A model generated the notes under the pieces. It made no database searches. It saw only the letters and a list, made by a program, of their open reading frames with translations, and was not told where the DNA came from. The translations under genes and the position numbers were made by a program. From NCBI GenBank assembly GCA_963920705.1, contig OY987232.1, positions 14,571,726-14,635,725 on the forward strand: DNA of 64,000 bases. The letters run 5' to 3'. Shown piece after piece: positions 2,327 to 64,000 of the stretch. Numbering within the stretch: position 1 is the first letter of the stretch; each line of letters opens with the position of its first letter. Source of the stretch: Odiellus spinosus. Taxonomy: Eukaryota > Arthropoda > Arachnida > Opiliones > Phalangiidae.

Positions 2327-3798
2327 ATATTATATCAAAAATGTCTTTGCGAACAAAGACCCAGAAGGACATGTTATGGCCTTGAACGTCTGAAGTGACA
2401 GATATTTAATTTTCTTTTAAAACATTAAATTTAAATACAATTAAATTTTCTTTTAAAACATGAAATTTAAATACAATTAGATTTTCTTTTAAAACGAAAT
2501 TTAAATATAATCACAATCTGGCACGATTTAGAGTTTCAAATTTCAATACAACTGATTTTATTCACTCGGAAATATTTAAGAAAAACATAACAGACGATTT
2601 TCTCCCATTGACGCTTAACATTAAATTTCGCTTGATTATTTTTCAGGGATTACGTGTCAAACAAAAGGAAACTTTTCGTTCGATAGAAAAATATACTTAA
2701 TTTAGCTTTGGCTTTAGGCTAGACTCAAAGTTCTATGATCTGATCTCATACCTTAATTGGATAATGTTTTCTATGGATAATGCTTTATTATAACTCTTCG
2801 ACTTTAGTCGAGGCAATTCGTTCATGTTAGCTTATGAATGCTTATCAAGGAATTTAAAGGGAAAAAAATTCCCCATATTTTAATTTTTAATCTAGGTTGC
2901 AAACGAACAAACCTAATCCATGGATAATGTTTTATTACAACTCCTCGACTTTAGTCGAGGCAATTCGTTCATGTTAGCTTACGGATGCTTATACAAGGAA
3001 TTTAAAGGGAATAAAAATTCCCCATATTTTAATTTTTAATTTGGATTGCAAACGAACAAACCTAATCCATGGATAATGTTTTTTTTATAACTCCTAATAA
3101 CTAATTGGTGGTCCCTTATGGAAATCATCATTTTAATTGTACGGTTTTAATGAAAAGAAAAATGAAAGTATTATAATTTATTTAAAAACCTTATCCGCTC
3201 TAAAATTCGTCGCTTTGAAATTCTGTTCCCTCGCGCGCGCAATATAGCTTTGAAAGTACAAATTGTTATGGTTTGCGTCGTCTGCTAAGTTAGAAAAGAA
3301 GGTGACTTTAAACGGGCTTTCAAAAACACATTTCCCTTTATCATATACCCATTCCAATAAACCGGGAGTATTTTTAACGATCCGTTCAATTGCGAGTCGT
3401 GGAAATTCGGGTTAAACTAAGAAAACATAAAGTGGACTCGCGTTATACTGAAAAATAACAGTTCAATACACGTTTTCCCTGAAAAATAATCAAGCGAAAT
3501 TTAATGTTAAGCGTCAATGGGAGAAAATCGTCTGTTATGTTTTTCTTAAATATTTCCGAGTGAATAAAATCAGTTGTATTGAAATTTGAAACTCTAAATC
3601 GTGCCAGATTGTGATTATATTTAAATTTCGTTTTAAAAGAAAATCTAATTGTATTTAAATTTCATGTTTTAAAAGAAAATTTAATTGTATTTAAATTTAA
3701 TGTTTTAAAAGAAAATTAAATATCTGTCACTTCAGACGTTCAAGGCCATAACATGTCCTTCTGGGTCTTTGTTCGCAAAGACATTTTTGATATAATAT
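2327..3798. repeat. Large foldback element with ~325-bp inverted arms
   Basis: The left arm (about 2327-2650) and right arm (about 3476-3798) are near-perfect reverse complements. Matching landmarks are TCTTTGCGAACAAAGACC, TGTCACTTCAGACGTTCAAG and CAGACGATTTTCTCCCATTG. The ~825-bp loop holds two full and one partial ~148-150-bp direct repeats (starting near 2772, 2920 and 3069), each with CTCGACTTTAGTCGAGGC. No transposase is visible. An open frame across 3740-3991 on the minus strand is only arm plus family H sequence. The element abuts the satellite on one side and the relic GMC promoter on the other. Confidence 0.85.
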
Positions 3799-4690: not shown

Positions 4691-4996
4691 ATTGGGGTAG
4701 TGTTCGTACGGGGTCAAAATAATTTCGGGGTTTAGATCGGGGTGGGTCTAACAACGCGAAAAACAGGTTAGAAAAATATCCTAATTTTACTGTTAGTCTG
4801 ACACCTCAAAATCCACGTTCTTTATATGGGCGCCGTTTGTTTTAGTCATATACACCTATTAATTTATTTACACCCAATTTATTACCCTTTATTGAAATTC
4901 AAGCCGCGTTATTCGTTTTAGAAGAGTTTCTTCGTAAAAATTGATTTTAATTAATTTCAATACACAATGCAGTACAGTTTAATTTAATGAATTATT
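4691..4996. other. Spacer downstream of GMC copy 1
   Basis: AT-rich sequence after the family B fragment. No coding region or clear repeat is seen. It should contain the 3' untranslated region of the minus-strand GMC gene that stops at 4997. Confidence 0.4.
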
Positions 4997-7900
4997 CTAA
5001 TAGGTATTGGCAGAATAAGAATTATTAATTTCGTAAGTTTCTTTTATCATGTCGGCCGCTTTTTCGGCGATCATTATAATCGCGGCGTTTATATTTCCCG
5101 ATATAATCCTAGGCATGATCGAAGCATCCACTATCCTTAATCCAGAAATTCCTTTCACTCTGTTAAAAAAAGTTTAATACCTCTTATCAAGAATCCATTC
5201 AGGTTCCATAAGAATATGGCAGCATAGCTTTAGCCTCTGGTACCATCCTCCCAAACTGTGTACGCTTAGATCTTTTTTCGGTCGGCTCCATTTTTATTAC
5301 CCGAAATAGTATGTCAAGGTCGTTGGTGGCGCGGGTTAATAATAGATGTCAGGAGCGATTTACTTGAAAAATCGATTCGAAGCGGACGAACTTTTGCTAC
5401 AAAGTTTGGGAGGATGGTTATTGAATCGCGGCCCTCCCATATTCTTGTGGAACCTGAATGGATTCTTGCTGTGCTAAAGGGTGAAACTGGTGCTTATGGA
5501 ACATAATAATTTTTTTTCTGTGACATCTATGACGTATCTTTATATATTTTGAATCGTAAAAATAGATCTTTTTGAAAATGCTTCTCAATTTCCATTTTGA
5601 GCCTTATTATAATATCATACCTTAGATTAGAGTCTACAACAGTTGTTGGGTCATTTGTCCTTCCCATTTTACAAGTACAACTAGCGTGGTAAAGAGAAAC
5701 AGTGAGGAGTCTAGCTACGCATTCAAAGTAAGCGTCCGAAGCTAACGTGAAATTTTCGCAACCGGGCACTGGACCAATCAGTTTCGGTTGCAGTGCCTTT
5801 AAGGCCTCGGTATTCAGCACCGTTTCATTGGCTTTTTTAATTGCTACAATCAACAAATAATTATTGAATTAGTTTCTTGAATGGATATCCCCTTATACTT
5901 ACCATAAAGCATCACTTTGATGTCTTGGGGATCTGATAAATAATTCATTCGAATAACTGGTGGATCAGTTGGTATTTTCGACCTTAACGTCACGTTTCCT
6001 CTGGATTTAGGGTGCAAAATTGTGGGCAATATAAGTAGCGTTTTCGTTTCGAAGAAACCATTATAGAAAGTTTGAATCTGCAATATTTAAATTTAAATAT
6101 TTATGAATTAGTATGAAAAGACGGATTGTAAATTCTTTAATTGAATCGTGAAAATGTAGAGGCTTATATAGCCTTGTGGGTAGTTTGAACAAACTTCAAA
6201 TGAACGACCAGTGGGTTCGTTTGAACGAATTTCCAATGAACACGACCTAGAAAACCTTAAAATCTGGGAATTTGGATATTTATCCAAAACCAAAAGGTCA
6301 GGTAATTTGGAAATTGAACCCAAAAGGTTTGTGAATTTGGAAAAGTTAAATAAATTCACTTTTTCAGTAAATGCGGCCTGAGGTGTTATAGTAGATATTA
6401 TAACATATTGTACGTCATTGTAGTCCCCTTCAACTGGTTCGTATTGGGATTTTAGCCAGCCCATGACTTCTACTAGGGCCGGATTCGATAGTAAACCCAT
6501 TAAAGTTTGAGGGAAATCAAAATCGGATATTGATGTGATTCTCAGCAACTCTGTGCGTGTTGGCACTCGCTCGGCAGTTATAGAATAAAAAACACCGTTC
6601 GTAGTCACATGATCCTGAAGATTTTGACCAACTGGCAAGTCCAACAACAAATCAATCTAAACAAAGAAATTTGTTAACATTGTAATTGGGGTACGATTAT
6701 TTTCTCTTAATGATATTGATTTTTAATTTTTATCAAACGGTTAACTTTTATTTAAACGCCTAGCCCTAGGTGCTGCCCACCCTTGTCCAGATTTGTACAG
6801 AGTTAGCCCCTCCCCTTGCGAGTCAAATCCCCTTATAAGTGTGAATAGCCAGATACAACAGATGTTGGTCAGTTTTGATTTTTAATTAATGGATTTTCGG
6901 TCGAATGTGTTTCTATTCAATGGTATCTTTTACCTTGCTCAGATTATAATAATCTACGTAATATCTGTGTAGATATCAGTTCTAATTTATAATATTGTTT
7001 TCGTGGATACTATTAAATTCATACTTCCATGTCTTTCAAGTGTTGGCTTGGTCCAATTCCCGATAGCATCAAAATCTGTGGTGTCTTTATGGCACCCGCG
7101 CAAAGAATCACTTCCTTATTGGCTGCCACGTGGTAAGTTTCATTCCCTTGACCGTTATCTTTGATGTAAAACACGCCTTTCGCCTTTGACCCTTGAATAT
7201 CAATCTAAAATCAGAGTATATAAAATATATAACCCTCTTTGGTAATTTACCCATTGAGTACCGCATTAGGTACTTTATTGTTTATCAAAAACAGATGAAA
7301 TATTGTGTTCTCACCTTGGTCACGTAAGCACCGGTAATGATTTGAAGGTTTTTCCTCTTGTTGTATATTGGTTGCAAATACGCCTTTTCCGTGCTGCATC
7401 TGTAGCCGTCCCTTATCGTGGCCTGAGTTGCTCCGAAACCTGGGTTCATATTGAAACTTTCAATTTATTATCCAATTACATGAGTAAAGTGCAAATAGGA
7501 TTTTACCTGTTTGACTCTTCCCATTGTAGTCTACGTTTTCGTAGCCTTGTTCCATTATCGCGTTGATATAGGTATTAAGAACTTCAGTCATGAAACTGTT
7601 GTTGGACACTGTCAATGGCCCACTATGACCATGGTAATCTTTCAAAGCAAAAAAGTAACATCAAAAGTCCATCACGTTATTCCATAGAAGTAAACAACTT
7701 CCCATAGCTTAATACTATCAGCAAAGGTCAGTTTTACGTCGTAGCCCATTTCTTAAAAATAGGTAAAAAATTCATCACCCCTGTCTGGCACGAGTTATTT
7801 GGACTCATCCACGATATTTTCAGTCTGAAGAGAATAGAGGGATGGAATTTAGGCGGGTCGCGCTTGGCTATATTGTGTTCCCCCCAACTCCGGAGTTTCT

Positions 7901-10127
7901 CCAAAGAGTGGCGCTTTAAATTTCACTTGGACCGCTAGTGTCTCGAATCAGAATCTATCGGTACATTTACCTGAACCTTTGCTGATAGGATTATGCTACG
8001 GGGCGTTATTGACGAAAACACTTTCATTGTGTGTGTGTGTGGGAAGGGGATGGGGAACATGTAGAAAGAAATAAACAATTTTAAGTTTAATTTTACTCTA
8101 GTTACGATAAGAAATGTATATTATAACGGTGTTTTACGCGTAAACTCGAAGATGTCGCCACAATAGAGCCTATTATCCGAGACCGCTTACCGTCTGACCT
8201 ACAGCGTGTCCACCCACCACGAGAGGCGGGATGCTTAGGAAAGAGGTTAGAGAGAGTTTAGTAGACCGGGAAATAAAACATTCCCGAACAATGCTCACCC
8301 CCAGAAAAACTGCGACCTCTATTATTAAAATCAGTGCCATCTCGTGTCTTTTCATCGTACTAAATAACCATTTACTACCGCCTTAAAACGATTCCGAGCT
8401 ATTTAAATATCGGTTAGATTTTATCGGTTTATACCAATTGTGAAAAATTGTGCACAATACCTTCATCAATAATTCTGTTTTGGATAGTCAGGTTTTCGGC
8501 TTTCTTGAAATATGGTAGAACTTGGTCGTAACCCCAACCTTCGGCACCATCTTTTTCCCACAAATCGTAGTCGATTCTGTTTCCTCTGACGTACAGCATG
8601 TTGTTAATCTGACTGGAACCTCCGAGAACTCGGCCCATCTGATATGGGCATCTCTATATAAATTCAATAAATATATTTATGTGAGAACTTGTATTTCCCT
8701 TTCTAAATAGGATCATTTACTAGTAAAGAGAAGTCTAAATTTTATTTGTATGCGGGTTTTATGGTATTTTTTGGATACGGAGACTCAAAGATAAAAACCA
8801 ATTAACCTTGTCAGTAGAACCCCTGCAAGCCTGCTCTTGGGGTTCCATGGTGTAATTCCAATTAATTGAAGTACCACTTGCGTATTTCGCAAGCAGGAGT
8901 GGAATTTCTGAATCTCTGGGAGGTTTTTCCCCAGCTTCAAGAAGCAGAACTTGAAAGCTTTCGTTTTCGCTTAATCGGTTTGCTAGAGTAGCTCCACCTG
9001 ACCCAGCGCCAACTAAAAATAATTATTGAAATTCAGCAGTGAAGGCTTTAAATCTTACCGTCTGTCATTTTATTAAATAAAAGTTAACAACGCCCCGTAG
9101 CTTAATACTATAAGAAAATGACCAGGTAGACGAACTAGCCCATCATTTAAAACTAGTCAAAAAAGTCTGCCTCGAGCTAGGAGGATATAGGGGTGAAGGT
9201 GAGTTTGACTGCCTATTCTTAGATATCAAGTTTCGAGAGCAGGGAGAGACGCTCACGCCCATCTATTTCCCTTGGCTATGCGCATCACGTGATCACGAAT
9301 TCTCAACTCTTGCCAATAGACGGCGAGTTGCCGACCTGCGCCAAACTAGTTGCGCGTAAACGTACCACCAGAACGAGGGGAAAGCGGTTTCAATGCTAAA
9401 ACAGGCAGTCCAACTCTCCTTCTTCCCTATATCTTCTTAGCCTCAAGTGATTTTGACTCTCATTCAATATTTTGAGTCGGGAGAGATTGATGGAATTTAG
9501 GCGGGCCGCGCACGGGTATATTGTCTTCCCTCCTAACTCCAGAACTTCTTCAAAGAGTGGCGCTTCCGATTTCATTATTTGCACCGTCTGCGGCCGCTAG
9601 AGTGTCTCGAATCAGAATCTGCAGGACCTTTTCTGATAGTATTAAGCTACGGGGCGTTGTTTACTTCTATGAAATAAAGTGATAGACTTTTGATCATACC
9701 AAGAATCCATTCAGGTTCCATAAGAATATGGGAGCATAGCTTTAGCCTCTGGTACCATCCTCCCAAACTTTGTAACAAAAGTTCGTCCGCAATTTTCTCA
9801 ACATTTGTACGCTTAGATCTTTTTTCGTTCGGCTCCATTTTTATTACCCAAAATATTGTGTCAAAGTCGTTAGTGACGCGGGTTAATAATAGATTTCAGG
9901 AGCGATTTACTTGAAAAATCGATTCGAAGCGAACGAACTTTTGCTACAAAGTTTGGGAGGATGGTTATTGAATCGCGGCCCTCTCATATTCTTATGGAAC
10001 CTGAATGGATTCTTGATCATACTTGACTAGAAAACGTACCAATTATGAAGTCGTAGTTCGCTCCATCGATAGTTTTTACCGCAATTAACAATATCGGCGA
10101 CAAAAATAACAGAACATTCAAAATCAT
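4997..10127 (-). CDS. GMC oxidoreductase (glucose dehydrogenase-like), tandem copy 1
   Basis: FAD-dependent glucose-methanol-choline oxidoreductase, probably secreted. Exons 5'-3' on the minus strand: 10127-10040, 9012-8807, 8653-8461, 7638-7507, 7439-7315, 7204-7025, 6656-6360, 6077-5903, 5843-5621 and 5159-4997. All phases join to give 593 residues, the usual family length. A hydrophobic signal peptide covers residues 1-23. The dinucleotide-binding motif GAGSGG is at 31-36. GMC signature 1 (GGSSQINNM) starts near 109. Signature 2 ([16 protein letters not shown]) is at 285-300. The catalytic His in [10 protein letters not shown] is near 518, and the partner Asn in SGNINAA near 564. Family H, B and C elements sit only in introns, so the frame is intact. 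The substrate is unknown: this family includes glucose dehydrogenases, ecdysone oxidases and salicyl alcohol oxidases. The class is sure, the specificity is not. Confidence 0.93.
5188..5468. mobile_element. Family H MITE copy 2, in the last intron of GMC copy 1
   Basis: It runs from CAAGAATCCATTCAGGTTCC to GAACCTGAATGGATTCTTG, 281 bp, with a shorter interior than copies 1 and 3. No matching flank duplication is visible. The equivalent intron of GMC copy 2 lacks it, so it inserted after the gene duplication. Confidence 0.82.
7655..8015. mobile_element. Family C MITE-like element in intron 3 of GMC copy 1
   Basis: The left end carries CATAGCTTAATACTATCAGC, and the right end carries its inverted form ending in CTACGGGGCGTT. 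Inside is the AGAGTGGCGCTT and CTCGAATCAGAATCT block shared with copies near 9058-9692 and 59058. Intron 3 of GMC copy 2 keeps only the left end (13632-13712), so the insertion predates the gene duplication and was later trimmed there. Confidence 0.65.
8078..8386. mobile_element. Family B half-element
   Basis: It spans from AGTTACGATAAGAAATGTAT through GATGTCGCCACAATAGAGCC to the terminus CTACCGCCTTAA (TTAA at 8383-8386). It is in intron 3 of GMC copy 1. A (GT)n run at about 8024-8045 lies just outside. Confidence 0.75.
9058..9692. mobile_element. Family C MITE-like element, longest copy, intron 1 of GMC copy 1
   Basis: Inverted ends carry AACGCCCCGTAGCTTAATAC (from about 9082) and its reverse complement (to about 9660). 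They extend outward into arms containing the reverse complement of AGTGATAGACTTTTG. The interior is non-coding. Family H copy 3 follows immediately. Confidence 0.72.
9700..10015. mobile_element. Family H MITE copy 3 (316 bp)
   Basis: The termini are CAAGAATCCATTCAGGTTCC and GGAACCTGAATGGATTCTTG. An exact 7-bp duplication ATCATAC flanks it (9693-9699 and 10016-10022). It lies in intron 1 of GMC copy 1, 25 bp from the exon 1 donor. Confidence 0.9.
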
Positions 10128-10423
10128 AATTATGAGGATATGCGCGGCTTATCATTAAGCGAAGGAATAAAATTGAATCATTTTTCGTGGGCGGGTTTAT
10201 TCGCATGTACATGTATATAAGTGTAATAGTAGCCCGAAGGCTGCTCTGTGAATTTGTGTTTTTATTGACGAATTTCTACTGGCCTACTCTACATACGATA
10301 ATAACCTACATTATATATAATCTGACTATTCGCAGATATCAATAAGAACTGACAATAAGGAATAATTCCTAATTCACAAGGTTTATTGATTCGTCAAGAG
10401 TTATTCCAAAACATCTTGACGTT

Positions 10424-10850
10424 TTAAGGCGGTATTAAAGGGTTGAAAAAATATAATAATATAGGTCTCAGTTCTTTTTGGGGATAAGGATTGTTTGGGA
10501 ATGATTTATTTCCCAGTCTACTGAATTCTCTCTTACCTTTTTTCCCCAGTTTTCAACGGGTGGTCACGCTGTAGGCCAGACGGTGACGGTGTATTGGGGT
10601 GACATCCTCGAGTTTACGCGTAAAACACCGTTATACATTTCTTATCATAAATGTATGTTATAGCGGTGTTTTACGCGTAAACTCGAAGATGTCGCCACAA
10701 TAGAGCCTATTATCCGAGATCCGTCACTGTCTGGCCTACATCATGCCCACCCATTGTGAGATACTGGGGAAAGAGGTAAGAGAGAGTTCAGTAGACTGGG
10801 AAATAAAAGTCCCAAACAATTCTTATACCCAGAAAAAGTTAGAAAAACAA
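10424..10850. mobile_element. Two inverted family B halves between the GMC genes
   Basis: A left half starting TTAAGGCGGTATTAAAGGG (TTAA at 10424-10427) meets an inverted half at about 10605-10685. The centre is a near-perfect hairpin around CGCGTAAAACACCGTTATA. The second half runs out through GTCTGGCCTAC and TTCAGTAGACTGGG. It looks like a rearranged double insertion. Confidence 0.7.
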
Positions 10851-10921
10851 ACCCCGATTATGGAAATATTTTTAATTAATTTCAATACACAATGCAGTAC
10901 AGTTTAATTTAATGAATTATT

Positions 10922-13900
10922 CTAATAGGTATTGGCAGAATAAGAATTTATATTTTCGTAAGTTTCTTTTATCATGTCGGCCGCTTTTTCGGCGATCATT
11001 ATAACCGCGGCGTTTATATTTCCCGATATAATCCTAGGCATGATCGAAGCATCCACTATCCTTAATCCAGAAATTCCTTTCACTCTGTTACCAAAAGTAA
11101 AAATAGATCTTTTTGAAAATGCTTCCCAATTTCCATTTTGACCCTTATTATAATAGCATACCTTAGATTAGAGTCTACAACAGTTGTTGGGTCATTTGTC
11201 CTTCCCATTTTACAAGTACAACTAGCGTGGTAAAGAGAAACAGTGAGGAGTCTAGCTACGCATTCAAAGTAAGCGTCCGAAGCTAACGTGAAATTTTCGC
11301 AACCGGGCACTGGACCAATCAGTTTCGGTTGCAGTGTCTTTAAGGCCTCGGTATTCAGCACCGTTTCATTGGCTTTTTTAATCGCTACGATCAACAAATT
11401 ATTATTGAATTGGTTTTTTTTAATGGGTGTCTCCTTATACTTACCATAAAGCATGACTTTGATGTCTTGAGGATCTGAGAAATAATTCATTCGAATAACT
11501 GGTGGATCAGTTGGTATTTTCGATCTTAACGTCACGTTTCCTCTGGATTTAGGGTGCAGAATTGTGGGCACTATAAGTAGCGTTTTCGATTCGAAGAAAC
11601 CATTATAGAAAGTTTGAATCTGCAATATTTAAATTTAAATATTTATGAATTAGAATGAAAAGACGGATTGTAAAAAGATTTGGCTTCGTTTGATCGAAAT
11701 TCCAATGAACGACCAGTGGGTTCGTCCTGAGGAATTCAAAGCGTATAAATAAATTTACTTTTTCAATAAACTGGGCCTGAGCAGCAATGTTGGATATTAT
11801 AAAATATTGTACGTCATTGTAGTCCTCTTCAACTGGTTCGTATTGGGATTTGAGCCAGCCCATGACTTCTACTAAAGCCGGAGTCGATAGTAAACCCGTT
11901 AGAGTTTGAGGGAAATCAAAATCAGATATTGATACGATTTTCTGAAATTCTATGAATGTTGGCACTCGCTTGGCAGTTATAGAATAAAAAACGCCGTTCG
12001 TAGTCACATGATCTTGAAGATTTTGACCAACTGGCAAGTCCACCAACAAATCAATCTAAACGAACAAAGAAATTTATTAACGTTGTTAACAAGTCGCATT
12101 GTTTTAATATTTAGCGGACGAAATTCCTCGTAACAAATAGTACAGCTGTCTGCATAATTGCAGATGATTTACCATTAGTTACGGTTGTTGCTAGGACTCG
12201 GCGTTTGGATCAAATTATCTGCTAATTTTACGATTAACCCTATTTATTAATTTAAAAGGCTCAAAGATAGGATGATAACAGAAGCCAATGAAACCCTCCT
12301 TTGAAGTCTACTACTCTAATGTTCCATATAGCGCGCCTCTCTGTATGGGTAAAATTCACGATTTTACGAGATCGGAGGGGTCCTACTTCATACCCCCTGT
12401 CTACGGAAAATTGGAAATTCTCTCTCTCCACAAACGACGACGTTTTTTTGACGAACTCCAAGGCTGCTAGAGATATTCGCTCGACGAACTCCCGCTCCGA
12501 AAATATCTACCGTTAGGAGGCGTACGAATTGCGCTTTTTGAAACTAACCCATACAGAGAGGGGTAGACAAGACCCGGGAGTAATAGACTTCAAAGGAGGG
12601 TTTCATCGGCTTCTGATGATAACAATATAATTCTTTAATTATATGAGAAAATCATTTGTTAGTAATCATATTACCAGAAATACTTTTTTGCTCGACGGTA
12701 ATTAGGGGCCCCTTTTGAAGATTTTGAGGCCCATTTAGTTTGATTTCTAAGCCCATTTGAATATATTTTGGGCATTTTGAAATTTACACATAGGCTATAG
12801 CCTTCCCCTGGCTATAGCCAGTAGCCACCACTGTTAAGCCTAACGTTACAGCCTAGCGAAAAACAATTTATTAAAACCCGAGCCCTAGATGCTGCCCACA
12901 TTTGTCCAGCTTTATACAGAGATGCCCCCCCCCCTCCACGCAAGTCAAATCCCCTAAAAAAATGTTGGTACATTTGAATTTTCATTAATTGAATTTCGGT
13001 CATACTTCCATGTCTTTCAAGTGTTGACTTGGTCCAATTCCTGACAGCATCAAAATCTGTGGTGTCTTTATGGCACCCGCGCAAAGAATCACTTCCTTAT
13101 TGGCTGCCACGTGATAAGTTTCATTCCCTTGACCGTTATCTTTGATGTAAAACACGCCTTTCGCCTTTGACCCTTGAATATCAATCTAAAATCGGAGTAT
13201 ATAAAATATATAACCCTCTTTGGTAATTTACCCATTGAGTACCGCATTAGGTACTTTATTGTTTATCAAAAACAGATGAAATAGTGTTCTCACTTTGGTC
13301 ACGTAAGCACCGGTAATGACTTTAAGGTTTTTCCTCTTGTTGTATATTGGTTGCAAATACGCCTTTTCCGTGCTGCATCTGTAGCCGTCCCTTATCGTGG
13401 CCTGAGTTGCTCCGAAACCTGGATTCATATTGAAGCTTTCAATTTATTATCCAATTACACGAGCAAAGTGCAAAAAGGTAATTACCTTTTTGACTCTTCC
13501 CATTGTAGTCTACGTTTTCGTAGCCTTGTTCCAATATCGCGTTGATATAGGTATTAAGAACTTCAGTCGTGAAACTAATGTTGGACACAGTCAATGGGCC
13601 ACTACGACCATGGTAATCTTTCAAATCAAACAAAGTATGATCAAAAGTCTATCACTTCATTCCATAAAAGTAAACAACTTCCCATAGCTTAATACTATCA
13701 GCAAAGGTCCAGTTTTACGTCATAGCCACAATAGAGCCTATTATCCGAGACCCGTCACCGTCTGGCCTACAGCGTACCCACCCGTTCCCGTGAGAGACGG
13801 GATACCAAATAACCCTTCAATAATCACCTTGTTTTTAACTACCCCACGCACAATACCTTCATCAATAATTCTGTTTTGGATAGTCAGGTTTTCGGCTTTC

Positions 13901-14565
13901 TTGAAATATGGTAGAACTTGGTCGTATCCCCAACCTTCGGCACCATCTTGTTCCCACAAATCGTAGTCGATTCTGTTTCCTCTGACGTACAGCATGTTGT
14001 TAATTTGACTGGAACCTCCCAGAACTCGGCCCATCTGATATGGGCATCTCTATATAAATTTAATAAATATATTTATGTGAGAACTTGTATTTCCCTTTCT
14101 AAATAGGATCATCTACTAGTAAAGAGAAGTCTGAAATTTATTTGTATTCGGGTTTTATGGTATTTTTTGGATACGGAGACTCAAAGATAAAAACGAATTA
14201 ACCTTGTCAGTAGAACCCCTGCAAGCCTGCTCTTGGGGTTCCATGGTGTAGTTCCAATTAATTGAAGTACCAGTTGTGTATTTCGCAAGCAGTAGTGGAA
14301 TTTCTGAATCTCTGGGAGGTTTTTCCCCAGCTTCAAGAAGCAGAACATGAAAGTTTTCGTTTTCGCTTAATCGATTTGCTAGAGTCGCTCCACCTGACCC
14401 AGCGCCAACTAAAAATAATTATTGAAATTCAGCAGTGAAGGCTTTAAATCAGTTTACTAAACAGGAAAACCCACCAATTATGAAGTCGTAGTTCGCTCCA
14501 TCGACATTTTTTACCACGATGAATAAAATCGCCAACAAAAATAACAGAACATTCAAAATCGTCAT
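10922..14565 (-). CDS. GMC oxidoreductase (glucose dehydrogenase-like), tandem copy 2
   Basis: Paralogue of the gene at 4997-10127 with the same ten-exon structure. Exons 5'-3': 14565-14475, 14408-14203, 14049-13857, 13617-13486, 13418-13294, 13185-13006, 12055-11759, 11619-11445, 11384-11162 and 11084-10922. They join in frame to 594 residues. Exon 1 encodes a signal peptide ([18 protein letters not shown]) and leads into DFIIVGAGSGG. Both GMC signatures, the [10 protein letters not shown] histidine motif and the SGNINAA asparagine are kept, so activity is expected. It is nearly identical to copy 1 in exons 8-9 but differs at 17 of 99 residues in exon 7. Intron 6 carries family A copy 1 and intron 3 carries remnants of B and C. 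The closest functional match cannot be named from sequence alone. Confidence 0.93.
12279..12615. mobile_element. Family A MITE copy 1 (337 bp), intron 6 of GMC copy 2
   Basis: The inverted ends are CAGAAGCCAATGAAACCCTC and its partner ending CATCGGCTTCTG. The imperfect arms are about 80 bp. The flank duplication ATGATAA (12272-12278, 12616-12622) is exact. Small open frames on both strands are family A sequence, not genes. GMC copy 1 lacks this insertion. Confidence 0.93.
13632..13800. repeat. Remnants of families C and B in intron 3 of GMC copy 2
   Basis: AAAAGTCTATCACTTCATTCC and AGCTTAATACTATCAGCAAAGG (C end) run directly into GCCACAATAGAGCCTATTATC and CCGTCTGGCCTACAGCG (B interior). Compared with intron 3 of copy 1, most of both elements has been deleted. 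Confidence 0.65.
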
Positions 14566-15742
14566 TATGAGAATATTCACGGTTTATGCATAAACGAAGG
14601 AATAAAATTGAATCTATTTTTCAATAGATTCTTTATTCGCATGTACATGAATATAAGTGTAAATGTAACCCGAAGGCTGCTGTATGAATGCATTTTCAAT
14701 TTTATGACGAGTTTCCCCTGGCCTACTCTAAATACTTTAATAATGTGAGTTTGACTATTCGCAGATATCTATGAAAATTTACATCAATGGATAATTCCTA
14801 ATTCGCAAGGGTTATTGAATCGTCAAGTGTTTTTATATGACGAATTACCCTTGGCATACTTTAAATGGATTGTGATTTTTAAAATATAATTACTATTAGT
14901 AAAAATTAATTAAAAATGTTTCGTGAACTTCATTATCAAATTCCATTGACTCGAAATTTGAAATTTAAACGATCATTTATTATCAGATTCTCTCGCGGCC
15001 GGGTGGGCACGATGTGGGCCAGACTGTGATGTTTCTAGAATAATAGGCTCTATTGTGGCAACAGCTTCGACTTTACGAGTAAAACCCCGTTATGATACAC
15101 ATTTCTTATAATAACAGAAGCCGATGAAACCCTCCTTTGAAGTCTATTACTCCCGGGTCTTGTCTACTCCTCTCTGTATGGGTTATTTTCAAAAAGCGCG
15201 ATTCGTACGCCTCCTACCGGTAGATATTTTCGGAGCGGGAGCTCGTCCAGCGAATACCTCTAGTAGCCTTGGAGTTCGTCAAAAAAACGTCGTCGTTTGC
15301 GGAGAGAGAGAGAATTTCCAATTTTGCGTAGACAGGGGGGTATGAAGTAGGACCCCTCCGATCTCGTAAAATCGTGAATTTTGCCCATACAGAGAGGAGC
15401 GCTATATGGAACATTAGAGTAGTAGACATCAAAGGAGGGTTTCATCGGCTTCTGTAAATAGTTACGTCAAAGACTATTTTTTGGCAACTTACCCATTGAC
15501 TTGGGCAGTCTTATACATTGATATTTTCTCAGGGCCCCCTCCCAGGAAGGGTTGATATCCCCAAATACCTCAGGGCCGCGCAAACAGCTGCCTACTTTAT
15601 TACCTGATTGATAATCGGCTCTGTTCTTAATCTTATTTTCCAAATAAAGATTCTTATGAGAACATTAACACCTGTTTGGTTAATCTTATAATCAATTGCT
15701 TCGTTAGTCTTGTTCACTAAGAAACCTAGAAAATATAGAATT
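14566..15742. promoter_or_regulatory. Divergent intergenic region, GMC copy 2 / carboxypeptidase
   Basis: The first ~260 bp is the GMC upstream block shared with copy 1 (TATTCGCAGATATC near 14757). A family B fragment lies at about 14990-15110, then family A copy 2. From 15455 to 15742 is AT-rich leader sequence for the plus-strand carboxypeptidase. No clear TATA box was picked out. Confidence 0.4.
15115..15454. mobile_element. Family A MITE copy 2 (340 bp)
   Basis: Both CAGAAGCCGATGAAACCCTC ends are present in inverted orientation. The flanks (ATAATAA and TAAATAG) are not a clean duplication. It directly follows a family B fragment. Confidence 0.88.
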
Positions 15743-18700
15743 ATGGTTTGGAAATTGTTCTTCATTGTTTTAATCTTTCGTAATTGTTTAACAGAAAATT
15801 ACACTGGGTAAGTTTAATTTCTAAGCCAGTTAGACTGCTTAATTCTTGGATATGAAAATCTAAATGATTTCAAATATTTAATTAGCATTATATTTTATAT
15901 TTTAAAGCCATGAACTATGGTCTGTTTCGATTCGTGATGTTAATGATATAAAGATTTTAAAAGATGTAATAGAAAACTATCAAGTAATTATCTTTTTTTA
16001 ATGAATATTACGAAATTTAAATCATTAATTAGAGCTCCTATCTGAACTTTAAAGTCACCTTACCCTACGTCAACGTCATATGTTTAATTTCTTCATCATA
16101 CTAAACACTAAAATTCTAAATTGCACACTTATTTCTGCCTTGTTGATGAGTTAGAAGGGAGATTGCAACCTAACAACAAGTGTTTTTTTATCGATTCCTT
16201 GTAGCCTAATCCACCAATAAAAAGATTGCCCAAAAATATTAAACTATAAATAAATTTAAAACTAACCCGGAAAATAGGCTTAGCTGGATTCACGGAGATT
16301 ACCTACATTTCTTCACATTGATGGATCAACGTCCAATCGAATGTTATTGGAAGTCTCACGGAGATCTCACCTTAACTAATGGTATTTGCTCATTGGTCGC
16401 TGACCCTTTCATTCAAAAATTCAGCTGATCTCCATGAATCCAGCTAAGCCTATTTTACGGGTAAGTTTTAAATTTATTTCTAGTTTAATATTTGTGCGTT
16501 ATTATTCGTGGGTTAGGCCTATTTAACAATATACACATATCTTAATATATCTCTATGTTTGACAAAAATATGGCCTTCACAAGCGTCCTCTAACGGCAAA
16601 CAATGGAGACAAAAGTAGGAACTAGCAAACCCTCGCTCTGGATAGAGAATGGGCAGAATTGAAGCTCGCGAAGTTTTGATAGTTCTTACTTTAGCCACTG
16701 TTTGCCGTTAGAGTGCGCTTATGAACGTCAGGTTTTGGTATCATTTTTTACTACTTTTGATAGGTGTCCATTAAAAATAGTCTCAGGTTAAATCTTAGAA
16801 CAATAAATTTAAAAATCAAAACTTTTTATTCACAGATTGATAATTGGAATCAAAATCTTAAAGAAAACAGTAAAATATTACTGCATATTAATGCTGAATC
16901 TAAAAAGAATGTGGCTAGGATTTTAAACCGATTTGGAATAAATATTTCGGTGTCGATTCCAGATATTCAAAGGTAAAATAAATTGAAAAATTAATATTAT
17001 CTTTCAGCTGTGTTAGGGTCTATGTTTTTGATTTATTAAGGCGGTAGTAAAGGGTTATTTAGTACGATGAAAAAACACGAGATGGCGCTGATTTTCATAA
17101 TAGGGGTTTCAATTTTTCTGGGGATTTAGATTTATTTCCCAGTCTAGTGAACACTCTCTTACCTATTTCCGCAGTATCCCTCCTCTCACGGAAGCGGGTG
17201 GGCACGCTGTAGGCTAGACGGTAACGGGTTTCGGATAGATTGTCTCAGAAAATAGGCTCTGTTCGAGTTTACAAACCGCCTTAAACGCCAATAAGCCCTG
17301 TGTATGTTGATACCACTCGTTTGATAGTTTTTAATATGTCCACTGCAAAAACATTTTCCTGGTCCCTTGGAATTTGTCCTAGCCTAGAATTATAGCGCTT
17401 CTATATGTGTTGAAAATTCTTTATCTTTGTAGGAAAATTTCTGAACAGAAATTCCAGCAGTATAATTGGTACAAAACATCATTAGAGCATGATAAATACT
17501 ACGATTATCCTCAGGTATAGTTTACTGTTAAATCATAGTTGGTATCAGAAGCCGATGAAACCCTCCTTTGAAGTCTACTACTCTAATGTTCCATATAGCG
17601 TTCCTCTCTGTATGGGTAAAATTCCCAATTTTACGAGATCGGAGGTGTCCTACTTCATACTTCCCCTGTCTACGGAAAATTGGAAATTCTCTCTCTCCTC
17701 ATTCGACAACGTTTGGTTGACGAACTCCAAGGTTGCTAGAGATATTCGCTGGACGAACTCGCGCTCCGACAATATCTACCGTTAGGAGGCGTACGAATCG
17801 CGATTTTTGAGACTAACCCATACAGAGAGGGGTAGACAAGACCTGGGAGTAATATACTTCAAAGGAAGGTTTAATCGGCTTCTGGTATTATATTGTTATC
17901 ATCCTATCTTTGAGCCTTTTAAATTACGAAACGTTAGAATAAAATTAAAAAATAGGGTTAATCCTATATTGGAGCAGAAGTAAAACACTTTAATTTTATG
18001 AAAATGCCAGAATGGCTTCAGCTTAAATGGTCCACGGTTTGATGATCGATCAGAAATATTTTCTTTGTTATACCCTTACTAATTCGGCAACAATTTAATT
18101 TCATACTTTAGGTTGAAATATATCTTGATGAGCTTTCGAAAAATCATGTAAACTTGGTAAGCAAGTTGTCAATTGGATTCACGTACGAAAATCGTAGCAT
18201 TGCAGGTGTCGCGGTAAGTAAAAGGACACCAATAAAGCATTATGCCTTAATGTTGGGAGGAAATCAGTTTTTAGACAATTTTATTAAACGTAAAGAGTTT
18301 ACGAACGCAACCATTCTTAGATTACAAAAGGAAACAAAGGTTTAAAACCTGCCTTGGTATATGAATGTGGAATCCACGCTAGAGAATGGATATCTACTGC
18401 TGTATGCCTCTTCATCATTGATCAGGTGCATATTTCATAAATCAAGAACTTATGTTTAAGGCGGTAGTAAAGGGTTATTTAGTACAATGAAGAAACACGA
18501 AATGGCTCTGATTTGCGTAATAGGGGTCTCAGTTGTTCTGAGGGAAAGGAATTATTTATTTCTCAGTCTACTGAACTCTCCCTTGCCTCTTTTCCCAGTA
18601 TCCTGCCTCTCCCGGAAGAGGGTGGTCACGCTGTAGGCCAGACGGTGACGTGTCTCGTATAATAGGATCTATTGTGGCGACATCTTCGACTTTATGCGTA

Positions 18701-27100: not shown

Positions 27101-30100
27101 CATTCTTTAGGTCTCATATTTCACTGCCTTCTTTCCTTACACTGTTCTCGTCTCGTTGTTAATTGTGGCCCTTCTGAACGACGGTGCAATTAACGGACTA
27201 CGATACTTTTTTACGCCCAAATGGGAGGATCTCTTGCGTCCAGAGGTAAGACTTAAAACAGTAAACTCCTTCCCTTTCTGGAAGTGGTTGGCAACACTTG
27301 GGAAACGGCATTTACCCCCTTTAGTGAAAACTATGTATAGACGGAATATTTGTATGGCTTTAGTGAGTGCGCGATTTAGTCAACGAACTCTTCTATTAGA
27401 GGGAATTGGAAAGAGGAGGCGGATCCTATTTCTCTTAAGCAAAACCTGGGCTGTAAACAGGGCACCCAATTTAGTCAACGACCTCTTCTATTAGAGGGAA
27501 TTGGAAAGAGGAGGCGGATCCTATTTCTCTTAAGCAAAACCGGGGCTGTAAACAGGGCACCCAAATACATGTTTTCTTGCTACGTCAATTCAGGAGGGGC
27601 AATAAGATATAAAGTTTTTCTTACGCTTTAAGAAATTAAGCTCCTCCTAATAAGTCAAATACCATATTTCTTTTATTTAGTAGACGTGTTAGCGTCTGAT
27701 GTTATGAACTGATCGGTGTGTTTAATACAATTTAATTTAATTCACCCCCCTAAACAGTCTACCCAATCTGAATATATATTTCTGAATCATGACTATTGGT
27801 TGCTCGTTGTGCAATGACCGTTTTCATTGTAGGTTTGGTACCACGCTTGCGAGCAGTCTTTCTTTTCACTCGCTGTTGGCTACGGATCTCTAGTGATGTA
27901 TTCCAGCTACAACGATTTCAAGCACAATGTCTCCAAGTAAAATTTGCTTTTCTAGTTTCCTAATCATGTACCAAACCACTTTTAAGTTTTTCATGGCACC
28001 ATCAATACTGAAGGTAAAGGGATAGAAACAAGGGTTATGATGATGAAGAATCGGTAACCTAGTGATACAATATATAGAAAATCAGTTTAAGATGGTAGTC
28101 AATGGGTAACTCACCAAAAAGGGTCATTTGCGGTACCTATTATCAAGCTAACTACAAATGCTATCAGTTCGCGGTTTTCACTTAAATTTCAATTGAAATC
28201 TACAGTTCATGATGTAATTTGGATGATTACAACACGAGAGAATCTTGTTTAAAAATAACTTCTCGAAATTTGATCATTTCTGTACCTAATATCTCACGTT
28301 GTAATATCCCTAGATTCTTCAACTTTACTTCTGACGAACCGTAAAAGTCAGACGTAGTTCGTGGTATAATTTGACAATTTTAAGTTTAATTTTTCTCTAG
28401 TTACGATAAGAAACGTATATTATAACGGTGTTTGACGCGTTAACTCGAAGATGTCGCCACAATAGAGCCTATTATCCGAGACCCGTCACCGTCTGACCTA
28501 CAGACTGCCCACCCGCTTCCGCGAATTGCGGGATACTGGGGAAAGAGTTAAGAGAGAGTTCAGTAGACTGGGAAATAAATCATTCCCAGAAAAACTTAGA
28601 CCCCTATTATGAAAATCAGGGCCATCTCGTGGTTTTTCATCGTACTAAATAACCCTTTATTATCGCCTTAAACGGTTCAACATTTTTTCGACGAACTTTT
28701 TTTGTTAATTTATCTTGTAAGATCAAAATTTAATTTTGTTACAGAGACGCGTTGATTGTCAGCTTCACGGACACGTTTACTAGTCTTCTAGCTGCTTCTG
28801 TGATATTTTCGGTTTTAGGTACTTTAGCTCTAAAACTTGGTCAGGACGTCGATACTGTTGTCAGCAAAAAAGGTTAGCATTTACTTTATATAATAAATCC
28901 CTTTAACGGCGATATTGACATACAAGGCACCTTTCTTGACCCTGTCTGGCAGTTAGAATTAGCACCCACTAATAACTTCCACATGTAACTTAAAAGTCCA
29001 TTTATCTTTTAGAAGGAATGTCTTTGGCTTTCATAGCTTATCCGGAAGCACTTGGCAACATTGGTTTTGTCCCTCAACTTTGGTCAGTTCTTTTCTTCAT
29101 AATGCTGTTCACCCTGGGAATCGGTAGTTCCGTAAGTTTTATTATTTCGTGTTTTATAAGAGGATGGACTACCTCTCTCATTTAAAATATGCATTTTGGT
29201 TAGGTTAGATAGAACGATAGAAGCAACAAATAAGACAGCATCAATAGAAAAAATGAATTCATGCTGTAAAATAATGTAATCATATTTTTAGGTTGCCCAA
29301 ATTGAGACCATTTTAACGGCTGTTCGAGATCGGTTTCCTTCGCTCAGGCACAAAAAATGGAGACTGGCTTTGGCGATGACTATATTTGCATTTTTTTGCG
29401 GAATTCCACTTACCACCAATGTAATTATCATAAGTAACGCCATATAAGGACTTTCAAGTCTCGTTCGTTCGGATGCTAAGTGAGAAAAGAAGGCGACTTT
29501 AATGGAGCTATAAAAATGGCGGATGGTCCCTTTAACTTATTTTCACAATATAAAAGTTGGGATCACTAGTAATCTAGCTCAGTCTGTAAATGGCTATACT
29601 ATTTTAGTTTTAGCGGTCTGGCATTACTTGGTTGGAATACAGTTCTGGAAAACAATACTAATGTTAAAGATTTAAATTTATACAGGGTGGTTCTTACATC
29701 ATGATGCTTCTTGATAACTATTGTGTGGGTACCGCCGTCTTTTTCTATGGCATATGCGAAGTTATTGGAATAATGTGGATTTATGGTAAGACATAGTCAA
29801 AGAAAGATAGTAAATATTTAGTAATTGAACAGTGTCAGAAGCATACGAACTACGGAAATCATTGTTTAACCATTTAATCTAACCTCCCCTAAAATAAACC
29901 TTCCCATGTGGTACTTTTCGTTTAACGGTATTTCTTTGTTTCAGGAACTAAGAAGTTGTGTAACGACGTGGAGTACATGCTTGGAAGTCAACCAAATTGG
30001 TTCTGGAAAATTACATGGGGTGGAATAACGCCCGTTTCTCTTATAGTAAGCTAATATGGGGTAATTTGGATCAACTAGAATTTGTGTAGCGTGCCATATA

Positions 30101-49700: not shown

Positions 49701-52462
49701 TTAGGGTAGTTGGATATAAATATGAAGAACCATTGAAAATTACATTAGGAGTGAAGGGAGAGATCAAGAAAGCCTTCAAATTTAAAGATTGACATTCAAA
49801 TAACTGTTTGAAGTTGAATATTGGTAAAAAAAGGTTAATTTTAGATATAATACTAGCAATTTTAGCTAATGGTTTTGGATCCAAAACCACTAGATGGAGA
49901 TATCGTTCCCTTCGCAATCGGACTGGCTATGGTCACGAGCCATTATTGGCCAGATGCCCTAAACACAGGCGGCCCACGCTATTTTCAGGGCAGACGACAA
50001 AGTGTGAACATTAAGACCATTATCATATTTTGGAAATGATAAAATATAAGTGGTTATTTTTCGTAAGTTTTCGATAACTTAAATCAAGAAAGTGTTTCCT
50101 CAGTTTATTTATCATTCAATCATCCGGAATCTGGACTTATTCGTTCTTAATAGAAATAAATTTCCCATAGGACTTGAACCCTAGGCCAAAGTAATGTAGT
50201 AACTTAATTTCTTTCATTACGAGCCCTTTAATAAGAAGAGCCAATCCAAAGCATCTCTTAAAACTACCGAATATGGCTAGACGTGCATTCTCATTTCCCA
50301 ATGTACTTTTCTAAAATATTAAATGTTTTTTTACCTGGCACAAAGGTACATTGGACGGTAGAGCTTTTTTCACGTCTTTAACCCATTGCTGGGGAACTTT
50401 TAAAGGAGCAAAATCAGTCACAACACCCCCAATCTTGTGTTCCTTAACAAAATTTGGTAGCACATCCTTGGCGTATCCGATCAAGAGATGAAACTGGATG
50501 TTGAGATTTTTGCATTCTGCTTCCACTTCTTTCAGACCTTTCAACATAAATGCGTAATGTCGAAGAGTGGCTTCCAAAAATTTGGGGACCAGACAAAAAC
50601 ATACAATCAACGGGCAACCCACTTTTAGTGCCAACCTTTGTGCGTAAAGCATGGCCCAGTTATCTAAAAAGAAAAAAAAAAGGTAATCCTAAAAATAGGA
50701 AGGGAAAATAAGGACCAAAATTTTCAAAATAGGAACCAAATTGGGACCAGTTTTCATTGAAAATATTTTATAGCAACTCTTTTAGGAAAACTAGGTGGAG
50801 ACCCCCACGATACATTTTTACTCTTCTTCTCGTACTCCCGAGGAGTGCATTGACTTGAGACTAGATCTCAGAGTTATTTAAGCAAGTTGCCCCACCTAGA
50901 CATATCTAAATAGATATTTATCCCCATTTTTAGGAAAATAGTGGGATTTATGGACCAATAACTGATTTTAGTAAGGTTTAGGGACTTGGGAACAAAATTA
51001 TATGAAAATGTAGTAGAATTACTACTGAAATTATATGAAAATATAGAATTACTACTAAAATTATATGAAAATGTAGTAGAATTACTACTGAAATTATATG
51101 AAAATGTAGAATTACTACTGAAATTATATGAAAATATAGAATTACTACTGAACTTATATGAAAATATAGAATTACTACTGAAATTATGAAAATATAGTAG
51201 AATTACTACTGAAATTATGAAAATATAGTAGAATTACTACAGAAATTATATGAAAATATAGTAGAATTACTACAGAAATTATTAGAAAATAGATTTGAAA
51301 TAATATAAAAATGATTTTCAAAGGAAAAAAAACCTTATTTCTCATTCTAAAACACACTGAAGCAGATAACTCAATTTCCCAAAATATTTTCTGTTCATTA
51401 TTGTAGCTTTGAGCGTCATCCGAGGGGTCCCAAAATATTTTCCAAAAAACTTCAAAATCCTAATAATCCCGTACAAAATGATTGCAAGTGTTCCACCCCT
51501 CAGCGCCATCTCTATTAAAAAGATTTACTTCATTTCAGTAAATTTAATAATAAAATATTAAAAACATGCAGTGGAAACGGACAAATACGAAACAAATCTT
51601 GTGAAAAAAAGCTGAAAATTTAGGAAAATAATTAAAGATATAGAAAATGTGGTCACCCTGCCAATATGATTCCCTTTCAAAAAAAAAGTTAGTCTAAAGA
51701 GGTCTTGGGGAAATCTTTCAGGTGTCTTATGTAGTCTTAAGAGGTCTTGGGGGAGTCTTTCATTATGTCACGAGGTCTTGGGGAAGTCTTAAAGGCTTCC
51801 CCAAGACTTTTGTAGCGTTACTGAGGGCCTCTTCAGATCAGACTAATTTTTTTCAGTAAGGGTTGGCTGCTTGTGTGAGGAGGTTTACGAAGTTGCTAGT
51901 AAATCTACAGGAGATTTCTCAATACAATATGTAATTTCTTGGTTATAATCCTTAAGCTTTTAAGACACCGGAGTGAGAAAAATACTATAAACTCAATCGC
52001 TTTCAAGCAAGTCCAAGCTTTCATAGGAACTAGATTGTTTCCTGCTAAAATTGACCAAATATTGTCTTCAGATGTCTGGGAGACAAATTAAAAGGATCGA
52101 AAGTTTCTGACAACTTAGCTAAGTTTACACTAGTAAATCTTCCTTTAAGCTGCTACCCTAAAGTTGAAAATTTGATTACCTTGAACTCTTTGGTCCCTTG
52201 ACATCCAATAGACAATTCCGTTGCAATCTTCTGGCAGATCTTCATTTTTGGAGATTATTCTGACTCGTTTCTTATTAAATTTGAATTCCTTAATAGAAGG
52301 CTTGAATGATATCCGATTTTCTTTGATATCTTGGAGGAATTTGTCATGACTATTGGACTCAGCCCCACTTGAACTTCCTTGAGTATTAGAGGCTTTTTTC
52401 AGCTTTTTTAGCTGTTGTCCAATTTCCGTTTGAACTAAAGGCCTTTTGGGATTCTTTGACAT
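46791..52462 (-). CDS. phr: Class II CPD photolyase
   Basis: Light-driven FAD enzyme that splits cyclobutane pyrimidine dimers in DNA. Exons 5'-3': 52462-52180, 50663-50335, 49644-49486, 49093-48889, 48507-48233, 47495-47336 and 46945-46791. They join in phase to 521 residues, right for class II. A lysine-rich, low-complexity N-terminus (1-~75) may carry nuclear targeting. Then come the class II hallmarks [19 protein letters not shown], the Rossmann-like antenna domain ([12 protein letters not shown]), [43 protein letters not shown] and [15 protein letters not shown] near the C-terminus, which belong to the FAD and DNA-binding domain. Intron 1 (~1.5 kb) holds a minisatellite and a family E element. 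Class I photolyases and cryptochromes do not share these motifs. No breaks are seen. Confidence 0.95.
50998..51295. repeat. 30/33-bp minisatellite in photolyase intron 1
   Basis: About ten units of AAATTATATGAAAATATAG followed by AATTACTACTG, with or without an extra GTAG-type triplet. The units are 33 or 30 bp, so one plus-strand frame stays open ([11 protein letters not shown] repeated). Nothing suggests expression. The host gene is on the minus strand. Confidence 0.9.
51666..51863. mobile_element. Family E copy (198 bp) in photolyase intron 1
   Basis: CCCTTTCAAAAAAAAAGTTAG to GACTAATTTTTTTCAGTAAGGG, with an interior of GTCTTGGGGAAGTCTT-type repeats. Confidence 0.78.
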
Positions 52463-54858
<2,396 letters not shown>

Positions 54859-63440: not shown

Positions 63441-63557
63441 GTTAGTGTCTTAAATCCTTCCATATTTATGAAATTCCCCTTAAGCTGACAAATTTTAGAC
63501 AAGTGTACCATTAACAGATTTCCTGCAGGTAAGGGGAAAATTCGAAAAAACTAGCAG

Positions 63558-63945
63558 AAAGGTCAGGGAATTTGTAAACTTGGGCCGACAGGTCTGGGGA
63601 ATTCGTAAACTTGGGCCGACAGGTCTGGGGAATTCGTAAACTTGGGCCGACAGGTCTGGGGAATTCGTAAACTTGGGCCGACAGGTCTGGGGAATTCGTA
63701 AACTTGGGCCGACAGGTCTGGGGAATTTGTAAACTTGGACCGAAAGGTCAGGGAATTTGTAAACTTGGGCCGAAAGGTCAGGGAATTTGTAAACTTGGGC
63801 CGAAAGGTCAGGGAATTCGTAAACTTGGGCCGAAAGGTCAGGGAATTCGTAAACTTGGGCCGAAAGGTCGGGGGATTCGTAAACTTGGGCCCTAAAGTCA
63901 GGGAATTTGTAAACTTGGGCCATAAGGTCAGAGAATTTGTAAATT
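63558..63945. repeat. 30/31-bp minisatellite at the right edge
   Basis: About 13 units of GGTCTGGGGAATTCGTAAAC plus TTGGGCCGACA (31 bp) grade into GGTCAGGGAATTCGTAAAC plus TTGGGCCGAAA (30 bp). Because the later units are 30 bp, long repetitive frames open on both strands. They look like by-products, not genes. It lies after the last visible CAP-G exon, probably in an intron. Confidence 0.9.
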
Positions 63946-64000
63946 ACCAAGGAATAGCTATATGTTACTATTATAGCAGGCGCTATTTGTAGAGAGAAAA

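Follow-up and report, generated by a model that had tools for sequence, protein, structure and literature searches.

The GMC oxidoreductase genes A, B, and C on contig OY987232.1 form a young tandem triplet, with D as an older fourth copy. We lean, with a confidence only slightly above even, toward explaining the array as a whole by a young triplet whose copies are kept alike by gene conversion, together with selection that spares a block around exon 7 in the substrate-binding domain. A sequence-only reading of A and B had offered two explanations for the concentration of protein differences in exon 7: selection acting on the choice of substrate, or gene conversion that keeps the other parts alike. 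The conversion part of this proposal is borne out by the mosaic ancestry of the three copies and by raised divergence in the flanking introns, whereas selection does not follow from the protein change alone.

Gene Models and Copies of the Array

The window, i.e., the whole stretch of DNA that was analyzed, is 64,000 nt long (positions 14,571,726-14,635,725 of contig OY987232.1) and belongs to an assembly of 443 Mb. The rebuilt models of A and B have GT-AG borders at all 18 introns, and the features of the two genes, in window coordinates, are as follows:

10127-4997, minus strand: GMC gene A, 10 exons, 593 aa, intact frame, GT-AG introns, PF00732 and PF05199
10127-10040, 9012-8807, 8653-8461, 7638-7507, 7439-7315, 7204-7025, 6656-6360, 6077-5903, 5843-5621, 5159-4997, minus strand: exons of A
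14565-10922, minus strand: GMC gene B, 10 exons, 594 aa, intact frame, GT-AG introns, PF00732 and PF05199
14565-14475, 14408-14203, 14049-13857, 13617-13486, 13418-13294, 13185-13006, 12055-11759, 11619-11445, 11384-11162, 11084-10922, minus strand: exons of B
6656-6360, minus strand: exon 7 of A, the divergent exon, residues 309-407 of A
12055-11759, minus strand: exon 7 of B, counterpart of exon 7 of A
6657-7024, minus strand: intron 6 of A, within the less homogenized block
12056-13005, minus strand: intron 6 of B, carrying an inserted repeat element at about 12273-12615
4945-5159, minus strand: exon 10 of A with 52 bp of adjoining 3' flank, these 52 bp being identical to B

The borders of exon 7 given by the sequence-only reading were recovered exactly in both models. 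Its description of an identical intron and exon layout holds for exon lengths, which are equal in A and B except in exon 1 (88 nt in A vs. 91 nt in B, with the start codon shifted by one codon), and fails for intron lengths, as in intron 1 (1027 in A vs. 66 in B) and intron 6 (368 vs. 950); intron 9 likewise measures 461 vs. 77 bp.

Two further minus-strand tandem copies with intact ten-exon frames lie directly to the left of the window on the same contig: copy C, the nearer one (14,570,444-14,565,655, 594 aa), and copy D (14,564,493-14,552,024, 585 aa). The proteins of the triplet differ from one another at 43 (A-B, of 593 aligned codons), 44 (A-C), and 59 (B-C) residues, and that of D is 62% identical to A. 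Copy C made three-way tests possible, while D was dropped as an outgroup for silent sites because these are near or at saturation. Across the assembly, the GMC N-domain gave 56 exon-wise matches, which count matches rather than genes. The possibility that exon 7 was donated by a more distant paralogue was rejected: the closest 3 of the 13 matched places are A, B, and C themselves (100, 83, and 80%), each of the three copies of exon 7 is located once in the assembly, and the next match among the best candidates scored is at 48-49%. A separate place on the contig (9657341-9657619), 4.9 Mb away, is 83% identical to exon 7 of D and contains an internal stop.

Several other features of the window and assembly were recorded. 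The repeat in intron 6 of B (12273-12615) belongs to a set of short repeats, 89-97% alike and in both orientations, with further members at 15107-15455 and 17540-17884. Positions 1-2269 hold a tandem array of about 23 copies of a 91-101 bp unit, followed by an inverted repeat (2327-2657 and 3468-3798) with 331-nt arms that are 99% complementary and 810 nt apart. A Pfam scan of other open frames matched 4 of 10, namely actin in two pieces (53780-54855, plus strand), DNA photolyase (50314-50688, minus strand), and a sodium:neurotransmitter symporter (27111-27491, plus strand). An open frame at 63498-63998 (minus strand) encodes a tandemly repeated FPDLSAQVYE-like peptide and is perhaps a minisatellite. 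The start of contig C1 carries TCAGG repeats, as do other contigs (167 overlapping matches in total); TTAGG has 10,296 overlapping matches assembly-wide and, among the 100 places listed, is scattered along contig C1.

Enzyme Family and Position of Exon 7

By their Pfam domains, A and B are GMC oxidoreductases, with scores for PF00732 and PF05199 of 165.8 and 128.3 bits in A and 163.7 and 128.1 bits in B, against curated cut-offs of 23 and 24.6, respectively. The domain scan covered A and B, and C and D are assigned to the family by homology. Judging from a hydrophobic N-terminus, A, B, and C are probably secreted. A His/Asn catalytic pair has been described for alcohol oxidase (PMC4961394), and in an alignment-only comparison with GMC enzymes of solved structure, H518 and N562 of A, the predicted catalytic His and its partner, lie within the corresponding C-terminal motifs.

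The earlier placement of exon 7 in the substrate domain agrees with the domain borders, as residues 326-407 of A lie between GMC_oxred_N (25-325) and GMC_oxred_C (430-571). The substrate-binding domain has been described as the part of GMC enzymes with divergent sequence (PMC4961394; PMC12198266). Residues 422-473 of A align with residues 411-461 of the fungal aryl-alcohol oxidase 3fim (E = 0.0037); by this alignment the access-loop residue F397 of 3fim would, barring gaps, fall near residue 408 of A, at the junction of exons 7 and 8. We infer that the second of two variable stretches described below is located about where the fungal aryl-alcohol oxidase has its access loop (PMC12198266). In arthropod enzymes, this loop is reported to be replaced by two helices of about 32 residues (PMC12198266), and these helices may correspond to the same variable stretch.

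Two other positions near the active site were compared. At the position of Y92 in PeAAO (Y128 in C. populi), which was set by alignment with 8rpf (chain numbering offset 21; V90 of 8rpf is a cavity residue according to PMC12198266), all three members of the triplet have Asn (in A, residue 116, encoded by exon 3) and D has Tyr. At the position of PeAAO F501, A has Y517, directly before H518, in keeping with the reported rule of a Tyr or a basic residue (PMC12198266). Because Asn replaces the conserved aromatic residue at Y92, we left A-C out of the arthropod aryl-alcohol oxidase group.

Protein and Silent Divergence along the Genes

Exon 7 differs between A and B at 17 of 99 residues and exons 8 and 9 at 4 of 133 (3 + 1 in 58 + 75 residues), both exactly as the sequence-only reading had counted. 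Replacement changes between A and B in exon 7 number 20 where 7.7 are expected, and the best 99-codon window anywhere in the gene, with 21 such changes, overlaps exon 7 (scan-corrected P = 0.001). By the Nei-Gojobori method, dN in exon 7 is 0.093 (AB), 0.129 (AC), and 0.133 (BC), vs. 0.023, 0.024, and 0.035 in the other exons. The corresponding dN/dS in exon 7 is 0.42, 0.66, and 0.60, and for A-B it is 0.31 outside exon 7. Compared with D, exon 7 also has a higher dN (0.45-0.47) than the other exons (0.26-0.27), so that it is less constrained over the long term as well.

Silent sites follow a similar course. In exon 7, dS is 0.221 (AB), 0.196 (AC), and 0.223 (BC), vs. 0.075, 0.088, and 0.097 in the other exons, and for A-B there are 13 silent changes where 6.3 are expected. 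This silent excess is significant for exon 7 as named (P = 0.005 for AB, 0.03 for AC, and 0.02 for BC) and, for the best free 99-codon window after scan correction, gives P = 0.11 (AB), 0 of 2000 shuffles (AC), and P = 0.0005 (BC). The best window begins at codon 338 for AC and at codon 341 for BC, so that both extend into exon 8, and silent divergence peaks at about codons 361-435, past the 11-residue segment that the sequence-only reading had singled out. Between A and B, exons 9 and 10 have 1.5 silent changes in 89 sites vs. 13 in 68 for exon 7 (Fisher P = 0.0005, taking 1.5 as 2 of 89), and exon 10 by itself has 0.5 in 34.8 sites. A three-sequence codon model rejects equal silent rates along the gene (P = 0.0008). 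Overall, the A-B rise in exon 7 is 2.9-fold for silent and 4.0-fold for replacement changes. We therefore reject the plain reading of the protein divergence of exon 7 as selection, since silent divergence is raised too; the sequence-only reading had itself named such a rise as evidence against protein-level selection, and on this count it largely turns against that half of its own proposal.

The introns flanking exon 7 are affected as well. Mismatch in introns 6 and 7 is 0.107 (AB), 0.108 (AC), and 0.121 (BC), vs. 0.052, 0.065, and 0.057 in the remaining introns (P = 0.006, 0.006, and 0.002), i.e., 1.7-2.1 times the divergence of the other introns. The three P values come from overlapping pairs of the same three copies and do not count as independent tests. 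These values are underestimates, as they come from the BLAST-alignable parts, and the mosaic test described below likewise took intron columns that pass a similarity filter. Outside this region, individual introns can also be divergent in particular pairs (0.136 for intron 8 in AB; 0.12 and 0.14 for intron 2 in AC and BC), as expected from a mosaic.

Mosaic Ancestry and Gene Conversion

Mosaic ancestry was assessed by aligning the exons and alignable introns of all three copies and permuting the order of the 233 variable sites. The pattern of which copy is the odd one clusters along the gene (switch count, P = 0.0002; exons alone, P = 0.0098). The best AB-alike and BC-alike tracts have P = 0.002 and P = 0.0002, and the AC-alike tract was not significant in the permutation over the 233 sites (P = 0.08). 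The mosaic persists when the test is confined to the exons and the length-stable introns 4 and 8 (P = 0.0004). Applied to all segments except intron 6-exon 7-intron 7, the permutation test, which stands in for the conversion scan proposed by the sequence-only reading, gave P = 0.0002, and in that block alone no mosaic was detected by permutation of site order (P = 0.22).

The individual segments illustrate the alternation. B is the odd copy at 8 of the 12 variable sites of exon 1, A at 21 of 30 in intron 3-exon 4-intron 4, and C at 23 of 32 in exons 8 and 9, with A odd at 6 of 8 in intron 8 between them. In exon 7, the odd-copy patterns are mixed (11, 13, and 19 sites, plus 9 sites with three different bases). 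Because a mosaic is found outside the block and none is detected inside it, and because introns 6 and 7 are raised in divergence, the copies appear to be kept alike by gene conversion, with exon 7 escaping. The simplest reading of these sequences is ectopic conversion, or an equivalent non-allelic recombination, outside a block that keeps an older divergence.

Variable Stretches and Possible Selection in the Substrate Domain

Within the block, the replacement changes cluster in two parts of the substrate domain, the second of which the sequence-only reading had not noted:

6534-6566, minus strand: variable stretch 1 in A, 11 residues, residues 339-349
11933-11965, minus strand: variable stretch 1 in B, 11 residues
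6360-6416, minus strand: variable stretch 2 in A, the 19 codons that end exon 7, continuing in codons 1-20 of exon 8 (6077-6018)
11759-11815, minus strand: variable stretch 2 in B, the 19 codons that end exon 7, continuing in exon 8 (11619-11560)

In stretch 1, A, B, and C each have a different residue at 5 of the 11 codons (342, 343, 346, 347, and 349). In the exon 8 part of stretch 2, the variation is mainly between C and A/B.

In the three-sequence codon model, omega is unequal among gene segments (P = 0.007) and is higher in a stretch of 23 codons about the VPT segment, picked after seeing the data, than in the rest of the block (P = 0.025). The estimate for these 23 codons varies with the silent rate: 2.5 with their own silent sites (P = 0.17 vs. 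1), 1.3 with the silent sites of the block (P = 0.46), 2.8 (P = 0.001) under one silent rate for the whole gene, a model that is itself rejected, and 3.7 when the other exons set the silent rate (P = 0.00009). With this last rate, the 11-residue segment of the sequence-only reading has an omega of 7.7 (P = 0.0000003) and stretch 2 an omega of 2.6 (P = 0.0005). All tested stretches were picked post hoc, after inspection of the data, and positive selection in the substrate-domain stretches is suggested rather than demonstrated, with P for the 23 codons ranging from 0.00009 to 0.46 depending on the silent rate assumed.

The end of the segment also departs from its relatives. The tripeptide N-Y-T stands there in 6 of the 9 distinct non-ABC homologues of exon 7 aligned from the assembly, and may possibly be an N-glycosylation site. 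In A, B, and C, the same position (exon 7 codons 39-41; 6542-6534 in A, 11941-11933 in B) reads RIT, KIV, and EIG, from which it follows that the gene triplet has departed from the family motif.

Why Exon 7 Escapes

We propose that A, B, and C exchange tracts via ectopic gene conversion or an equivalent non-allelic recombination. The block of intron 6-exon 7-intron 7, which runs on into the beginning of exon 8 when C is one of the copies compared, is raised in silent and intron divergence. In our proposal, tracts that overwrite the block would be removed by selection, as the three enzymes may need different pockets or alcohol substrates, which is the uncertain step of the proposal. Raised silent divergence does not refute such selection, because selection under recurrent conversion also leaves a divergence peak: in the theory of Teshima and Innan, as reviewed, selection that keeps duplicates different under conversion leaves the peak at its target (PMC3924837). 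In a more specific and tentative form, selection would maintain three pocket modules against ongoing conversion, giving one enzyme chassis with three substrate heads, and the change from Tyr to Asn at the gate would mark a new substrate class; we find this form plausible, yet are more inclined to doubt it than to assert it.

The block from intron 6 to exon 8 could also have gone without recent conversion by chance, or owing to insertions in the flanking introns, so that older age and weak constraint would account for its divergence with no selection at all. This is a real possibility, if somewhat doubtful on balance. It agrees with an exon 7 dN/dS of 0.42-0.66, below 1, with the weaker constraint on exon 7 seen in A-D, B-D, and C-D alike, and with the presence of length differences in introns 6 and 7. 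The excess of dN in exon 7 is also near the product of the silent and the long-term excess in two pairs (AB, 4.0-fold vs. 2.9 times 1.8; BC, 3.9-fold vs. 2.3 times 1.7), but in AC it is 5.5-fold and exceeds the product of 2.2 and 1.8. Likewise, stretch 1 combines near-average silent divergence (pS 0.08-0.12) with a pN of 0.17-0.21 in all three pairs, which speaks against age and weak constraint as the only causes.

The intron lengths bear on the physical part of this explanation. Intron 6 is 368 bp in both A and C, with 336 bp aligned, and intron 7 of B and C differs by only 20 bp; exon 7 is still divergent in both comparisons. Conversely, the silent divergence of exon 10 between A and B is low beside an intron 9 of very unequal length. 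These three observations make a purely physical barrier a weak explanation, and insertions as the sole barrier to conversion are disfavored, as intron 6 of A and C is equal in length and alignable.

An error of assembly or sequencing, or a local mutation hotspot, at exon 7 is unlikely. Near-identical tandem copies are hard to assemble, and the analysis rests on the assembly rather than on reads; however, frames and splice sites are intact in all three copies, intron lengths differ among them, the length of exon 7 does not, and each copy of exon 7 occurs a single time in the assembly. Positive selection on exon 7 alone, without gene conversion, is most improbable: the replacement excess in exon 7 and an omega nominally above 1 in stretch 1 would fit it, but silent sites and flanking introns are raised too, and the genes are of mosaic ancestry elsewhere.

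Comparison with Known Systems

If selection against conversion is confirmed, the array would be a natural experiment in which near-identical enzymes allow substrate preference to be traced to a few residues. More generally, silent sites, introns, and additional copies have to be considered before exon-wise protein divergence between young duplicates is taken for selection.

GMC enzymes of insects make defensive aldehydes, as in the case of salicyl alcohol oxidase (PMC12198266), and alter plant volatiles (PMC10307781), and their genes are often clustered (PMC1891103), with a cluster located in an intron of Flotillin-2 (Flo-2; PMC1891103). A search for the Flot domain found no match across the whole assembly, a result that says nothing on whether the array lies in a Flo-2 intron. 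The arthropod aryl-alcohol and salicyl alcohol oxidases share with A, B, and C the GMC domains, the Tyr before the catalytic His, and a similar length, but have a conserved aromatic residue at Y92, where A, B, and C have Asn (PMC12198266). In Manduca sexta, Hi-1 and Hi-like are also linked, recent GMC duplicates, with 85% coding identity and isomerase activity in one only (PMC10307781); that pair, however, represents a lepidopteran hexenal isomerase, and the main text of its description does not use the words "gene conversion." Our literature search, of limited coverage, returned no paper joining GMC oxidoreductases, gene conversion, and insects.

Outside this family, GOT1p1 and GOT1p2 of Tigriopus californicus, a copepod and thus also an arthropod, likewise form a mosaic of high and low divergence under ongoing conversion, although they encode a different enzyme and were studied in several populations (PMC3728101). 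The red and green opsins of humans resemble A, B, and C in being nearby duplicates kept alike by conversion with one exon, exon 5, standing out, and in the raised divergence around the putative target (PMC3924837). The two systems differ in copy number, two for the opsins vs. three here, and in the flanking introns, which are low in divergence in the opsins and raised here in introns 6 and 7 (PMC3924837). A divergence peak under gene conversion is a known pattern, and the A/B/C array is a new case of it.
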